Below are positions 43,796 through 49,473 of a stretch of DNA of 64,000 nucleotides, one piece after another. The translations under genes and the position numbers were made by a program. The notes beneath the pieces were generated by a model. That model was not told where the DNA came from, did not search any database, and saw only the letters and a program-made list of their open reading frames with translations. Source of the stretch: Amycolatopsis mongoliensis (GTDB taxonomy: Bacteria; Actinomycetota; Actinomycetes; Mycobacteriales; Pseudonocardiaceae); NCBI RefSeq assembly GCF_030285665.1, contig NZ_CP127295.1:10478001-10542000 (forward strand). The letters are read 5' to 3'. Within the stretch, counting starts at the first letter, position 1, and each line of letters begins with the position of its first letter.

Positions 43796-44776
43796 TCAGC
43801 GGTCGCCCTTGGCGGCCGCCACCTGGAGGACCGCACGTTCCAATGCGTAGCCCGGGTCGGCCGCCACGCCCTTGACCTCGGCGTTCAGCCTCGCCACGAC
43901 CCGCATCGCGGTCGCGAGGCCGTCCTGGTTCCAGCCCCGGGACTGGCCCTGGGCCTTGCGGATCTTCCACGGCGGCATGCCCAGCTCGCCGGCCAGCTGG
44001 TTCGGGTTGCCCCGGCCCGCACCCGAGACCCGGGCGATCGTGCGGACCGCGTCGGCCAGCGCGTCCGCGACCAGGACGTGCGGGACGCCCAGCTGCATCG
44101 CCCAGCGCAGCGACTCCAGCGCCGCCGAGCGGTCGCCGCTCACGGCCTTCTCCGCGACCGCGAACCCGGTGACGTCCGCGCGGCCGCGGTGGTAGCGGCG
44201 GACCGCTTCGGCGTCGACGGTCCCGCCGGCGTCCGCCACCAGCTGCGTCGCCGCAGACGAGAGTTCTCGCAGGTCGGAGCCCACGGCGTCGATCAGCGCG
44301 GCCACCCCCGCGGGGTCGATCTTGCCGCCCGCCCGGCGCACCTCGTGCCGCACGAACTGCTCGCGCTCGGCCGGCTTGGTCAGCTTCGGGCACTCGGTGA
44401 CCTCGGCGCCCGCCTTCTTCAACACCGCCGGGAGCGTCTTGCCCGCCTTGCTGCGGCCGCCGCCGGTGTGCACGACGACCAGCACGATGCCGTCCGCCGG
44501 GTCCTTCAGGTAGGAAGCCACGGCGTCGGCCAGTTCCTGCGAGATGTCCTGCGCCGACTCCAGGACGATCACGCGGCCTTCGCTGAACAGCGACGGGCTG
44601 ACGAGTTCGGCCAGCTCGGGGGCTGTGAGATCCGACACCCGGACCCGGGTCAGCTCGGCCGTGGCGTCGATCGCCCGGGCCGCGGCGAGCGCCTCGCGGA
44701 CGGCGCGCTCGATCAGCAGTTCTTCCTCGCCCAGGACCAGGAGCAGCGGGGCCGGGGCGGTGGCTTGCGCGGTCAC
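43796..44776 (-). CDS. holA: DNA polymerase III subunit delta
   Basis: A 326-residue clamp-loader subunit that opens the beta clamp. The N-terminal AAA+-like domain has 'LLLVLGEEELLIERAVREAL', and later regions 'LVVVHTGGGRSKAGKTLPAVLKKAG' and 'MPPWKIRKAQGQSRGW' are typical of actinobacterial HolA. The degenerate P-loop is expected, since the delta subunit does not bind ATP. It converges on rpsT; upstream lies the riboswitch of the divergent thrC-like gene. Confidence 0.93.
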   Translation of the reverse strand: MTAQATAPAPLLLVLGEEELLIERAVREALAAARAIDATAELTRVRVSDLTAPELAELVSPSLFSEGRVIVLESAQDISQELADAVASYLKDPADGIVLVVVHTGGGRSKAGKTLPAVLKKAGAEVTECPKLTKPAEREQFVRHEVRRAGGKIDPAGVAALIDAVGSDLRELSSAATQLVADAGGTVDAEAVRRYHRGRADVTGFAVAEKAVSGDRSAALESLRWAMQLGVPHVLVADALADAVRTIARVSGAGRGNPNQLAGELGMPPWKIRKAQGQSRGWNQDGLATAMRVVARLNAEVKGVAADPGYALERAVLQVAAAKGDR

Positions 44777-44924
44777 GGAAGGATCCTCTCACTTGCGGTG
44801 TCGTGCGCCCGCTCCGGTGATGTCGAGCGGCCGGCGTGGCACGGCGTGAGCGCCATGTCGTACGGTGTAGCCGAGGCAGCCGCCCCGGATCATCCGGCGA
44901 GCGCGCGCCGACAATCGAATACCG

Positions 44925-45054
44925 CTCATCCAGAGGGGCAGAGGGAACGGCCCGACGAAGCCCCGGCAACCGGCGTACAGCCCGTCATCCCGCGATCGCG
45001 GGGTAGCTGACGACCACGGTGCCAATTCCGGCCCGCTTCGGCGGGGCAGATGAG
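44925..45054 (+). ncRNA. SAM-I (S-box) riboswitch
   Basis: The P1 arms CTCATC (44925-44930) and GATGAG (45049-45054) enclose the conserved core. This core has AGAGGGGCAGAGGGAACGG then CCCGACGAAGCCCCGGCAACC (44931-44961), and GGTGCCAATTCC (45018-45029) in J3/4-P4. These are the S-box invariants for S-adenosylmethionine binding. P1 ends 15 bases before the thrC-like ATG, with the Shine-Dalgarno GGAAAGG overlapping the P1 end, so control of translation initiation is likely. Confidence 0.92.
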
Positions 45055-45069
45055 GAAAGGAACCTCGCG

Positions 45070-46335
45070 ATGACCGCCACCCTCGGAACGACCTCCACCA
45101 CGAAGACCCCGGATCTCGGTCCGGCCGTCGAACTGGTGTCGAAGGAAGAGGGACACCGGCAGCCGCTCGCCCCCGAGTTCGTCTCCGCCGAGGACTTCTC
45201 GCCGCTCGAAGTCGCCTACGACTTCGGCCGCGTCCGCCGCGAAGACATCGAGGCCGGCCCCAAGAACATCTGGCGCTACAAGAAGCTCCTCCCGGTTCCG
45301 TCCAATGTCGAGGAGATCCCGAACACCGAGCCCGGCGCCACCCGGCTGATCCGCGCCGACCGCCTCGCCAAGGAGCTCGGCCTCAAGCGCGTGTGGGTCA
45401 AGGACGACACCGGCAACCCGACGCACTCGTTCAAGGACCGCGTCGTCGCCGTCGCGCTGGCCGCGGCCCGCGAGTTCGGGTTCGAGGTGCTCGCGTGTCC
45501 GTCGACCGGCAACCTGGCCAACGCGACGGCCGCCGCCGCGGCCCGCGCGGGCTGGCGGTCGGTCGTGCTGATCCCGAAGACCCTCGAGCGCGCCAAGATC
45601 CTCACCACCGCGGTCTACGACGGCGACCTGATCGCCGTCGACGGCAACTACGACGACGTCAACCGCCTCGCCACCGAGCTCGCCGGTGAGCACCCGAAGT
45701 GGGCGTTCGTGAACGTGAACGTCCGGCCGTACTACTCCGAAGGCTCGAAGACGCTGGCCTTCGAGGTCGCCGAGCAGCTCGGCTGGCGCATCCCGCCGCA
45801 GGTCGTCGTGCCGATCGCCTCCGGTTCGCAGCTGACCAAGGTGGACAAGGGTTTCCGCGAGCTGGGCCAGCTCGGTCTCGTGGACGCCAGCCCGTACAAG
45901 GTGTTCGGCGCTCAGGCCACCGGCTGCTCGCCGGTGTCGGCCGCGTTCCGCGCCGGCCAGGACGTGGTCCAGCCGGTCAAGCCGGACACGATCGCCCGCT
46001 CGCTGGCGATCGGCAACCCGGCCGACGGCCCGTACGTGCTCGACATCGTCAACCGCACCGGCGGCGCGATCGAGGACGTCAGCGACGAAGAGGTCGTCGA
46101 AGGCATCCGGTTGCTCGCCCGCACCGAGGGCATCTTCACCGAGACCGCGGGCGGGGTCACCGTCGCGACGGCGAAGAAGCTGGTCGAGACGGGCAAACTG
46201 GACCCGGACGCCGAGACGGTGCTCCTGATCACCGGTGACGGCCTCAAGACCCTCGACGCGATCGAGAACCACGTCGGCCCGAAGGCGACCGTGCCGCCGT
46301 CCGCCAAGGCCGTGAACGAGGCGCTCGGCTACTGA
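45070..46335 (+). CDS. thrC: Threonine synthase-family PLP enzyme under SAM control (possible OPH-dependent homocysteine synthase)
   Basis: A 421-residue fold-type II PLP enzyme. The Schiff-base Lys is Lys122 in H-S-F-K-D-R, the PLP phosphate region is 'PSTGNLANA', and the C-terminal end is 'LITGDGLKTLDAI'. By family this is threonine synthase (O-phosphohomoserine to threonine). However, a SAM-I riboswitch directly upstream puts it under methionine control. From memory, a threonine-synthase-like enzyme (MetM) in Streptomyces makes homocysteine from O-phosphohomoserine, a closer fit. The ATG at 45070 is preceded by GGAAAGGAA. No hom or thrB gene is adjacent. Confidence 0.9.
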   Translation: MTATLGTTSTTKTPDLGPAVELVSKEEGHRQPLAPEFVSAEDFSPLEVAYDFGRVRREDIEAGPKNIWRYKKLLPVPSNVEEIPNTEPGATRLIRADRLAKELGLKRVWVKDDTGNPTHSFKDRVVAVALAAAREFGFEVLACPSTGNLANATAAAAARAGWRSVVLIPKTLERAKILTTAVYDGDLIAVDGNYDDVNRLATELAGEHPKWAFVNVNVRPYYSEGSKTLAFEVAEQLGWRIPPQVVVPIASGSQLTKVDKGFRELGQLGLVDASPYKVFGAQATGCSPVSAAFRAGQDVVQPVKPDTIARSLAIGNPADGPYVLDIVNRTGGAIEDVSDEEVVEGIRLLARTEGIFTETAGGVTVATAKKLVETGKLDPDAETVLLITGDGLKTLDAIENHVGPKATVPPSAKAVNEALGY

Positions 46336-46375: not shown

Positions 46376-48757
46376 TCAGCGCTTCGGCGGGCCACGCGGC
46401 TCGCCCCGGCGCGCTACCGTCGGGCCTGCCGGGTCGCCGACCACCGCGGTGTCGCCGTCCAGGTCGGTTCGGGTGACCAGGGCACCCAGCGCCGCCAGAG
46501 TGTCCATTGTGGACTTACTGGGGTGCCCGTAGGTGTTTCCCGCGCCGACGCTGACCAACGCCACCCTCGGCGCCACTGCCGCGAGGAACGACGGCAGCGA
46601 GTAGCGCGAGCCGTGATGGGGCACTTTCAGCACCTCCGCCTTCAGATTTCCGATGTCCGCCAAGAGATCCGCCTGTGCCGCCAGCTCGACGTCGCCGGTC
46701 AGGAGCACCCGGCCGGCCGGCGTCTGCGCTCGCAGGACCACCGAACTGTTGTTGATCGTCGTGCCGTCCTGCTGCCCGGCCGAGCGAGCCGGTACGTAGC
46801 GCGGGCCGAGCACGTCGAGCGACAGCCCGGCCCACGCCAGCCGCTCCCCCGGATTCAGCTCCACCAGCGGCACCCCCTGCTGCCTTGCCTCCTCCGCGAC
46901 CTGGCGCCACGCCCACTCCGGCGCCCGCCCCGGGCCGACGGCGATCCCGCCGACCGCCCGGCCGTCGAAGACCGACGCCAGCCCGCCGATGTGGTCGGCG
47001 TGCAGGTGGCTCAGCACCAGCAGCGGGATCCGGTCGACCGCCAGCCGGTGCAGGCACTCGTCCACCGGCCCCGGCTCGGGTCCGGTGTCCACGACGACCG
47101 CCCGGCCCGGCTCGGCCGTCGCCAGCACGACCGCGTCACCCTGCCCGACGTCGCACTCGACCATCGCCCAGTCCCGCGGTGGCCATGCCGGTGCGAACAC
47201 CCGGACCGGCACGAACACCAGCAGTACGCCGACGACCAGCACCGCCATCACCAGCCGCACGCGCCGGTGCCGGGCGGCCAGCACCAGCACCCCGAGCACA
47301 GCCGCGGCGAGCAGCCCGCCCGTCCAGCCGCCGGGCCACGCGACGACCGCACCGGGGGCCCGCGCGCCGTGGCGCGCCACGGTGATCAGCCACCGCGCCT
47401 CCGGGTCGGCCAGGTGCACCAGGAGCTTCCCGGCGCCCGGCCACCAGGCGCCGATCACCGTCGCCAGCACGCCGAGCACCGTCGCCGGAGCCACCACGGG
47501 CGCGGCGAGGACGTTGGTCAGCACCGAAACCAGGCTCACCGAACCCGCCATGCCCGCGAGGACCGGCGCCGTCACCAGGAAGGCGGCCGCCGGGATCGCC
47601 AGCCCTTCGGCGAACCCCGGCGGGACACCGCGACGAGCCAGCGCGGCGGCCCAGCGGGGCGCGATCAGGACCAGCCCGGCCGTGGCGAACACCGACAGCG
47701 CGAACCCGAAGTCCGTCGCCATCGCCGGATCCGTCACCACGAGCACGCACACCGCGAACGCCAGCGCGGGCAACGCCGAGCCTCGCCGGCCCAATGCCAG
47801 GGCCAGCAGCGCGACCCCCGCCATCACCCCGGCCCGCAGCACGCTCGGCTCCGGGCCGACCAGGACGAGGAACCCGGCCAGGCACGCGCCCGCGGCCACC
47901 GCCGACAGCCGCGGCCCGAGCCGCAGCAGACGCAGCAGGAGCAGGACCGCGCCGCACGCGACGGCGAGGTTTCCCCCGCTGACCGCCGTCAGGTGGGTGA
48001 GCCCGGCGGTGACGAACTCCTGCTCGACCCGCGGCGACAACCCGCTCGTGTCGCCCAGGACCAGACCCGGCAGCAGGCCGGCGGGTTCGTCCGGCAGGAC
48101 CTGGCACAGGTCGTGGAGTCCGGCGCGCAGCCCGGCCGCGGTCCGCTGCCACCACGGCGCCGGCCCGGGCTCCCCCGGCGGGCCGCGCACGGACAACACC
48201 GCGGCCGTCAGGTCCGAGCCGCGCGGCGGCATCAGCAAACCGGTCGCCGTCACGTCCTGGCCCGGCAGCAGCGAACCCCAGTGCGCGACCGGCGCCAGCA
48301 GCAGCACGCGTCCGGACGACGTGACCGGCCTGCCGTCGACCGACGCCGTGCGGACCTCGGCCGTCAGCACCACCGACCGGGCTCCGGCCTGCTGATCGGC
48401 ATACCCCGCGCTGCGCACGGGCTTCGGGCGCTCGGCGACGACGACCCGCATCGACGCGGGGAGCCCGTCGGCCGAGGCCGCACGAAGATCGTCACGCTGC
48501 GCGTCCCGGATCCGCCAGGCGACCGGGCCCGCGGCGACGAGTCCCAGCACCAGCAGGGCCGCTGCCACGCCGAGCAACCGGGGACGCCCACGCGCCCGCC
48601 AGAGCACCAGTCCGGCGAGCACCGCCGAGGCGAGCCCGGCGGCGACGGCCGTCCACCAACCCAACAGCAGGCCGCCGAGTGCGGCGAGCCAGCACGCGAG
48701 CGCCGCCGGGACCAGCCGCATGTCCTGCCGGGTGTCGGTCGCGGGAAGGGTGCTCAT
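46376..48757 (-). CDS. comEC: ComEC/Rec2 DNA-uptake channel protein
   Basis: A 793-residue membrane protein of the DNA internalisation family. It has N-terminal membrane segments, a DUF4131/OB-like extracellular region, the Competence domain (from ~residue 235, 'LPGLVLGDTSGLS'), and a C-terminal metallo-beta-lactamase domain. That domain has 'DVGQGDAVVL', 'LVLSHLHADHIGGL' (HxHxDH) and 'LLTGDVE'. Together with comEA it suggests a DNA-uptake or related export machine, though competence is not shown for most actinobacteria. An ATGA overlap couples it to comEA. Confidence 0.92.
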   Translation of the reverse strand: MSTLPATDTRQDMRLVPAALACWLAALGGLLLGWWTAVAAGLASAVLAGLVLWRARGRPRLLGVAAALLVLGLVAAGPVAWRIRDAQRDDLRAASADGLPASMRVVVAERPKPVRSAGYADQQAGARSVVLTAEVRTASVDGRPVTSSGRVLLLAPVAHWGSLLPGQDVTATGLLMPPRGSDLTAAVLSVRGPPGEPGPAPWWQRTAAGLRAGLHDLCQVLPDEPAGLLPGLVLGDTSGLSPRVEQEFVTAGLTHLTAVSGGNLAVACGAVLLLLRLLRLGPRLSAVAAGACLAGFLVLVGPEPSVLRAGVMAGVALLALALGRRGSALPALAFAVCVLVVTDPAMATDFGFALSVFATAGLVLIAPRWAAALARRGVPPGFAEGLAIPAAAFLVTAPVLAGMAGSVSLVSVLTNVLAAPVVAPATVLGVLATVIGAWWPGAGKLLVHLADPEARWLITVARHGARAPGAVVAWPGGWTGGLLAAAVLGVLVLAARHRRVRLVMAVLVVGVLLVFVPVRVFAPAWPPRDWAMVECDVGQGDAVVLATAEPGRAVVVDTGPEPGPVDECLHRLAVDRIPLLVLSHLHADHIGGLASVFDGRAVGGIAVGPGRAPEWAWRQVAEEARQQGVPLVELNPGERLAWAGLSLDVLGPRYVPARSAGQQDGTTINNSSVVLRAQTPAGRVLLTGDVELAAQADLLADIGNLKAEVLKVPHHGSRYSLPSFLAAVAPRVALVSVGAGNTYGHPSKSTMDTLAALGALVTRTDLDGDTAVVGDPAGPTVARRGEPRGPPKR

Positions 48758-49473
48758 CCGACCGTCACCTGCTCTCGCAGCTTCTCGAACTTGCTTTCCC
48801 CGATGCCCGGGACGTCGCGCAGCTGCTCGACCTTCGTGAAGCCGCCGTGCTCGGTGCGCCACTGGACGATCCGCTGGGCCGTCACCTCGCCGACGCCGGG
48901 CAGCGTGTCCAGCTGGTCGGTACTCGCCGAGTTGAGATCGACCTCGGCGCCCGCCGCCGCTCCGGCCGCCGCGGCGGCGGGCGCCGGGATCCCGACCGCC
49001 AGCTGCTCCCCGTCGGTCACCCGGCGGGCGAGGTTCAGCGCGCTCAGGTCCGCGCCGGGATCGGCGCCGCCCGCGGCCCGCAGCACGTCCGCGACGCGGG
49101 CGCCCTGGACCACGGTGACCAGGCCGGGTGACCGGACGCGGCCGATCACGCTGACGACGAGGCCGGACTGGGGTGTGGCCCGGGCCGAGGCCTCGCTCGC
49201 CGGTTTCGCGCTCGGCAAGGCGGGCGGTGGCTCGGGGGTCGGCGGGCCGCCGAAGAGCGCGACCGAGCCGAGGACGATCACCACGACGGAAACGAGGACA
49301 CCGGCGAACGCCCACCGGCGGCGGCCGGCACCGGCCGGTCCGCCCGGCAGCCAGCGCCGGACCAGCCGGCCGCCGGGCCCGACCGTGCTCGCGTCGGGCG
49401 AGAGCTGGTCGGCCAGCCAGGCGAGCCGGTCGTTGACGGGAGGGCCCGGATCCCGGGCGGGCTGCTCGAACAC
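48754..49473 (-). CDS. comEA: ComEA-family helix-hairpin-helix DNA-binding protein
   Basis: A membrane-anchored DNA receptor of ~239 residues. A cytoplasmic N-terminus is followed by a transmembrane segment near residue 60 and a Pro/Ala-rich linker. An SLBB-type domain ('VSVIGRVRSPGLVTVVQGARVADVLRAAGG') and two helix-hairpin-helix motifs ('LNSASTDQLDTLPGVGEVTAQRIVQWR', 'LRDVPGIGESKFEKLREQV') complete it. The start is uncertain: GTG at 49473 lacks a Shine-Dalgarno but has TAACGT six bases upstream, as in leaderless genes; a GTG at 49560 is also in frame. It is coupled to comEC. Confidence 0.87.
   Translation of the reverse strand: MFEQPARDPGPPVNDRLAWLADQLSPDASTVGPGGRLVRRWLPGGPAGAGRRRWAFAGVLVSVVVIVLGSVALFGGPPTPEPPPALPSAKPASEASARATPQSGLVVSVIGRVRSPGLVTVVQGARVADVLRAAGGADPGADLSALNLARRVTDGEQLAVGIPAPAAAAAGAAAGAEVDLNSASTDQLDTLPGVGEVTAQRIVQWRTEHGGFTKVEQLRDVPGIGESKFEKLREQVTVG

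Follow-up and report, generated by a model that had tools for sequence, protein, structure and literature searches.

MetM was identified as a homocysteine synthase of Streptomyces by Hasebe et al. (2024), as cited in the excerpted text of a 2025 paper (PMC12172450). According to these excerpts, metM of Streptomyces albulus has a SAM riboswitch upstream, and a cyanobacterial relative of MetM, 51.6% identical to its Streptomyces counterpart, is adjoined by a metO-like carrier gene. The same excerpts report threonine synthase and threonine deaminase activities of this relative in vitro and give no sign that it raises cellular methionine, two points that argue against crediting all members with MetM activity. 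Another close system is canonical threonine synthase (ThrC; TIGR00260; PDB 2d1f, 1uim, 2zsj and 6cgq), with which the enzyme described here shares the fold, the SFKDR motif and the likely substrate. For S. albulus, the combination of MetM and a SAM riboswitch has been published before; what is new here is a variant that lacks both a neighboring metO and the N-terminal cysteines, together with its predicted sharing of the carrier CysO.

The stretch of DNA analyzed (the window) is 64,000 nt of Amycolatopsis mongoliensis (NZ_CP127295.1, positions 10,478,001-10,542,000 of the forward strand, GCF_030285665.1), from a genome of 10.8 Mb in one contig. The features of the locus, in window coordinates, are as follows.

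43796..44776, minus strand: DNA polymerase III delta subunit (holA-like), divergent, upstream and unrelated (Pfam DNA_pol3_delta_C, 31.2 bits; DNA_pol3_delta, 21.0 bits, at its cut-off)
44923..45056, plus strand: SAM-I (S-box) riboswitch aptamer (Rfam RF00162, 76.3 bits, cut-off 44.4, E 3.8e-16, full model 1-108)
44925..44930, plus strand: 5' strand of helix P1, CTCATC, read from the sequence (partner at 45049-45054 in the Rfam alignment)
45049..45054, plus strand: 3' strand of helix P1, GATGAG, containing the first bases of the Shine-Dalgarno stretch (sequence and Rfam alignment)
45051..45061, plus strand: predicted Shine-Dalgarno stretch, TGAGGAAAGGA (duplex prediction, -6.1 kcal/mol)
45063..45066, plus strand: CCTC, predicted anti-P1 element, complementary to GAGG at 45052-45055 (complement counts; also paired in the predicted MFE fold)
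45070..46335, plus strand: PLP enzyme of the metM clade, 421 aa, annotated as threonine synthase (ORF, profile scores and clade placement)
45139..45195, plus strand: site of the four-cysteine zinc-ribbon-like motif, codons 24-42, which here reads S, E, S and D at 24, 27, 39 and 42
46376..49315, minus strand: ComEC/Rec2-like competence protein, convergent, downstream and unrelated (Pfam Competence and metallo-beta-lactamase domains)

ATG 45070 was taken as the start of the enzyme because the start of the alternative ORF, GTG 45019, falls within the aptamer. The nearest named relatives among the matches listed are from Amycolatopsis (98-99% identity). The upstream neighbor also scores above the cut-off of NCBIfam NF005918, a model named hypothetical protein. 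The ComEC-like gene occupies the downstream side of metM, the position of metO in other families, and no MoaD/ThiS gene lies beside the enzyme gene, just as the sequence-only reading of this locus had noted.

The enzyme is a fold-type-II PLP protein (Pfam PALP, 236 bits) and passes the NCBIfam thrC model TIGR00260 (283.1 bits, cut-off 167.1). Two metO-bearing members of the MetM clade also pass it, so the model accepts both clades and does not separate ThrC from MetM, which accounts for the name 'threonine synthase' on the named relatives among the 120 listed. The best 25 NCBIfam matches contain no MetM model. Three clear paralogues of the enzyme, at 32-36% identity, are encoded in the same genome. 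The sequence-only reading had proposed a search for a second thrC beside hom/thrB; one is indeed present, in the order lysA-hom-thrC-thrB-rho (ThrC at L019:7765-8826, 35% identical to the enzyme), and all five genes of this cluster pass their NCBIfam models, so that the enzyme is not the sole thrC of the genome.

To place the enzyme more widely, we used a class sample of 148 genomes, in which an orthologue was called at E ≤ 1e-60. Among the 107 matches obtained, that of G007 (39% identity, internal stop) was moved to the genomes without metM, leaving 106 clade-bearing genomes (~72% of the sample) and 42 without the clade; G004 and G060 hold fragments at contig ends. In the genome searches, candidates were ranked in a first step and the top ones were scored, for instance 12 per genome for MetX and 150 of 530 for SAM-I, and the absences given here hold within that limit. 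Canonical ThrC (E ≤ 1e-70) was found in 106/106 clade-bearing genomes, and the three genomes lacking ThrC all lack the clade. In a tree of 39 MetM-clade proteins, 12 canonical ThrC proteins and two other paralogues, the clades are split with supports of 100/99 and 98/95; as the earlier reading had anticipated, the enzyme falls outside canonical ThrC (100/99) and into the clade that contains the metM-metO pairs of Streptomyces. Fixed changes distinguish the clade from ThrC as well: STGNT becomes STGNL (residue 149 of the enzyme), GNA becomes ASG (250-252), and the ThrC stretch NSVNPxRIxGQKT reads NVNVRPYYxEGSKT. Compared with canonical ThrC, the enzyme therefore belongs to a separate clade and has an N-terminal extension, fixed changes at STGN(T/L) and in the NSVNPxRIxGQKT region, and SAM-I control. 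That it is the housekeeping ThrC is ruled out by the separate ThrC cluster, the co-presence of ThrC in 106/106 genomes and the tree split.

A carrier gene lies directly downstream in 8/8 clade loci of named Streptomyces genomes, whose enzymes are 62-65% identical to the one studied here, and the five of these loci that were scanned with Rfam all carry SAM-I. The presence of these metM-metO pairs with SAM-I suggests that the clade is most likely the MetM family, an identity that rests on the Streptomyces loci, the trees having been built without the S. albulus sequence itself. By this comparison, the enzyme of A. mongoliensis is most likely a SAM-I-controlled, MetM-type homocysteine synthase, so the interpretation given in the sequence-only reading is well supported. 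With the S. albulus MetM-MetO system (Hasebe et al. 2024, as cited in PMC12172450), it shares the clade of Streptomyces metM-metO pairs, the upstream SAM riboswitch and a separate ThrC; the two differ in that the A. mongoliensis enzyme has no adjacent metO and no set of four N-terminal cysteines, in that none of the four carriers found in its genome is clearly orthologous to MetO, and in that a MetX/MetY route coexists with it.

The distribution of the usual acylating enzymes was then compared with that of the clade, in raw counts that ignore kinship. MetX and MetA are both absent from 58/106 clade-bearing genomes and one or the other is present in 48/106, while 39/42 genomes without the clade have MetX or MetA. 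Since the NCBIfam MetX cut-off of 500 bits was passed by no genome, controls included, matches at E ≤ 1e-40 were used; weak MetX matches in G017, G046 and G119 (148-164 bits, against at least 313 for the others) were dropped, and if they are counted, 55 rather than 58 genomes lack MetX/MetA. The genome of A. mongoliensis has metY and metX together (C1:4059183-4061566), so metM is probably not essential there, and methionine auxotrophy is not expected on its deletion. MetM is probably one of two methionine routes in this genome, namely the one behind SAM-I.

The aptamer is the sole RNA family match at gathering level that Rfam gives in the 64 kb window. A complete S-box core 15 bases before the start codon had been read from the letters of the sequence, and the Rfam alignment agrees with this: ATG 45070 lies 15 nt past the last P1 pair and 13 nt past the Rfam match. 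SAM-I is present in 96/96 clade loci scanned with Rfam (1 own, 40 class, 20 family, 15 named and 20 further family loci, with one record, L110 = L250, counted twice), implying that the arrangement of SAM-I and enzyme is not due to chance. In 19 of the 20 further family loci, all but L209, SAM-I was placed by coordinate comparison. The leader statistics cover 75 loci (74 distinct), the scanned set less L117 and 20 further family loci. By script, the start codon lies 6-18 nt past the aptamer in 75/75 of them, a gap that leaves no room for a terminator hairpin.

The P1 3' strand carries GATGA at the same position in all 75 aptamers analyzed. The first four bases of the predicted Shine-Dalgarno stretch are part of P1, and its AAGGA ends 8 nt before the ATG (the 16S tail used in the duplex prediction was typed from recall). 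Across the leaders, the best Shine-Dalgarno stretch begins within the P1 3' strand in 71/75 loci and at most 2 nt after P1 in the other four. This overlap points to translational control, and direct translational control is the simplest reading of the metM leader, in which SAM would be expected to switch translation off. Between P1 and the start, four bases perfectly complementary to the end of P1, in most cases CCTC, are present in 53/75 loci (2.2 after shuffling) and in 31/52 different sequences (1.3 after shuffling). Folding of the leader alone with ViennaRNA misses the aptamer fold (z -0.81). The ATG within the P1 strand GATGAG was considered as the true start and rejected, being in frame in 20/60 loci, the chance level. 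Like described SAM-I elements with translational control, the leader has a full RF00162 aptamer ahead of a methionine-supply gene; the metM leaders differ from them in having no room for a separate terminator platform and in the overlap of Shine-Dalgarno and P1.

One further SAM-I element was found in the genome among the best 150 of 530 candidates (C1:3720484). It precedes a gene for a MetN-like ATPase with a NIL domain, so that both SAM-I elements found precede likely methionine-supply genes. At this second locus (L021:8485-9795; C1:3720484-3721794), the lone ATPase gene is followed by ispE, with neither a permease gene nor a binding-protein gene seen alongside. Some leaders elsewhere have an unusual layout. 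The SAM-I of L117:4246-4582 contains an insert exceeding 150 nt in P3, for which Rfam joins a wrong 3' end, the true 3' half being directly upstream of the gene. Genome G193 has two metM copies, L208 (79% identical to the enzyme) and L209 (64%), neither with an adjacent metO, and SAM-I lies ~730 nt away from L209. A c-di-AMP riboswitch (L089:1785-1961) lies near the metM locus of genome G013.

We then examined the distribution of metO and of the cysteine motif. With family codes assigned by tree neighbors (f1, Pseudonocardiaceae with Actinopolyspora; f18, Streptomycetaceae), metO was found beside metM in 0/49 f1 loci (29 and 20 in two sets) and in 0/14 loci of named Pseudonocardiaceae. In the best tree obtained for 116 clade members, the metO label changes seven times, four of these changes being forced by starred branches, which suggests that the metM-metO pair was broken or formed repeatedly. 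The outgroup rows of this tree sit on very long branches, and the split of ThrC and MetM rests on the 39 + 12 tree described above. At the N-terminus, MetM orthologues carry four cysteines spaced as CxxC...CxxC. Among the 199 loci compared, all four are kept in 108/108 metO-bearing loci and in 51/91 metO-less loci, so the loss of the motif does not simply track the loss of metO. In the other 40 loci, three or four of the cysteines are gone; these loci comprise P0001, f1 or named Pseudonocardiaceae, one unclassified MAG and one Actinopolyspora locus, and all lie in one part of the tree, where a single change accounts for them. L077, L080 and L221 each retain a single cysteine, and the last two encode the same protein.

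The earlier suggestion that a carrier gene may lie elsewhere in the genome can be refined: four ThiS-family carriers were found, none of them is a clear MetO orthologue, and CysO is the nearest. The four carrier genes are listed below.

CysO: flanked by a JAB-domain (mec-like) gene and a cysM-like gene
MoaD: beside moaA
ThiS: between thiO and thiG
Fourth ThiS-family carrier: L018:15228-15539, behind a BNR-repeat protein

The BNR-repeat gene and the orphan ThiS-family carrier gene form a pair at L018:14170-15539 (C1:128169-129538). In a tree of 77 carriers, from which 18 of 95 matches were left out (12 ThiS loci, five metO-locus duplicates and L163), 30 proteins from metO-neighbor genes and 21 CysO proteins form one group (93/98). 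CysO is a supported subgroup (100/98) lying among the MetO rows; the two are not cleanly split, as one MetO row lies with CysO and MetO needs two changes, and the tree is too short to date their split. CysO of A. mongoliensis, which is 46-59% identical to six aligned MetO sequences, groups with all other CysO proteins, suggesting that its genome probably has no separate MetO.

A CysO/MetO-type carrier (E ≤ 1e-7) is present in 106/106 metM genomes. The 18 genomes without such a carrier all lack metM, that is, 18/42 in raw counts that ignore kinship; carrier numbers per genome refer to the matches listed, and the carrier-less genomes were listed completely. Among the matches listed, a single CysO/MetO-type carrier is found in eight metM genomes that lack MetX, MetA and an adjacent metO. 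In the seven of these whose carrier locus was covered (G008, G019, G029, G044, G046, G072 and G082; the eighth genome is G015), the carrier gene lies between mec and cysM, and the single carrier of these genomes is therefore taken to be CysO. These seven become six if the weak MetX match of G046 is respected; G082 is in one contig, whereas the rest of the seven are draft assemblies.

One ThiF-family enzyme was found in the A. mongoliensis genome, a MoeZ with a rhodanese domain. In Amycolatopsis, a 2014 paper is said to describe a fourth carrier called MoaD2, and MoeZ reportedly charges all carriers. The CysO-CysM-Mec system is a cysteine route of actinobacteria, and the genome encodes CysO, a CysM-like enzyme, a Mec-like JAB protein and MoeZ. 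The route resembles the predicted one in combining a fold-type-II PLP enzyme, a carrier and MoeZ; the two differ in that CysM and the MetM-clade enzyme are distant relatives and the acceptor of the latter is predicted to be phosphohomoserine, not phosphoserine. Together, the metO-less genomes with CysO only, the position of CysO as the nearest relative of MetO and the one MoeZ lead us to predict that CysM and MetM both draw on CysO. Finding CysO in a genome is not discriminating by itself, since this carrier is common; given the carrier comparisons, it is the best candidate partner of a metO-less MetM. Separately, MetO of L093, L100, L111, L112 and L113 has one residue past the terminal Gly-Gly (a Cys in four of them and an Ala in the fifth), suggesting that a protease step such as that of Mec may be needed before these proteins are charged.

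Three other explanations were considered. MetM could be a homocysteine synthase that, in metO-less lineages, works without a carrier protein and takes its sulfur from free sulfide or some other small donor. Such a donor would fit a metO neighbor that changes seven times (four forced) while metM and its riboswitch stay, as well as the Pseudonocardiaceae subclade without the four-cysteine motif, and the excerpted text of PMC12172450 mentions a test of sulfide to mimic MetM activity. However, no metM genome of the 106 lacks a CysO/MetO-type carrier, against 18/42 of the non-metM genomes, and 51/91 metO-less loci retain the four cysteines, which makes a carrier-free reaction unlikely. We regard it as less likely still that MetM of Pseudonocardiaceae and family f14 is served by the BNR-linked ThiS-family protein (L018:15228-15539). 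This protein lies outside the group of CysO and MetO (93/98), though on long branches, its gene is not linked to metM, and no BNR gene lies beside the fetched carriers of the metO-less genomes G034, G049, G085, G082, G008 and G073 (one G073 match and four below the cut-off were left out of this search). On the other hand, the BNR pair is encoded in A. mongoliensis and in every inventoried genome of f1 (three) and f14 (two), none of which has metO next to metM, and it was not seen in the nine inventoried genomes that bear metO (one match of G039 and one below-cut-off match of G100 being left out).

It is very unlikely, in our estimate, that the enzyme is a second threonine synthase, or a threonine synthase/deaminase, whose control by SAM is incidental. 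A canonical ThrC accompanies the clade in 106/106 genomes, residues conserved in ThrC are replaced by other fixed residues in the clade, there would be little sense in SAM repressing the supply of threonine, and the clade anticorrelates with MetX/MetA (kinship ignored); these points stand against the score of 283.1 with TIGR00260 (cut-off 167.1) and against the threonine synthase activity in vitro of the cyanobacterial relative, as given in the excerpts of PMC12172450.

Our main reading, to which we assign a probability of roughly 0.8, is that the locus encodes a MetM-type homocysteine synthase whose translation would be repressed by SAM and whose most likely carrier is CysO. The proposed mechanism is as follows. 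The PLP enzyme with the threonine synthase fold would take O-phosphohomoserine and add sulfur from the thiocarboxylate of a carrier protein, in place of water, yielding homocysteine and then methionine. High SAM would close P1, which would hide or crowd the Shine-Dalgarno stretch and turn translation off; at low SAM, CCTC before the start would compete with P1 and help to open it. In the metO-less lineage, CysO, charged by the single MoeZ found, would deliver the sulfur to MetM. A broader scenario, which we put forward tentatively and at somewhat less than even odds, is that in several actinobacterial lineages including Amycolatopsis, MoeZ-charged CysO feeds both CysM and a riboswitch-controlled MetM, that MetO was lost repeatedly, and that a Pseudonocardiaceae subclade also shed the zinc-ribbon-like motif.

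The naming of this clade, present in ~72% of the sampled class genomes, as threonine synthase by the thrC model hides a likely methionine route, and the 58 of the 106 genomes without MetX and MetA would appear to lack the usual means of forming homocysteine. With P1 and the Shine-Dalgarno stretch overlapping, the leader is a compact design of SAM-I control that can be tested by simple reporters. In the metO-less branch, the carrier choice of MetM and the sharing of a carrier are testable with four carriers and one activating enzyme in one genome. If CysO is indeed shared, the riboswitch would set the amount of carrier-bound sulfur that goes to methionine.
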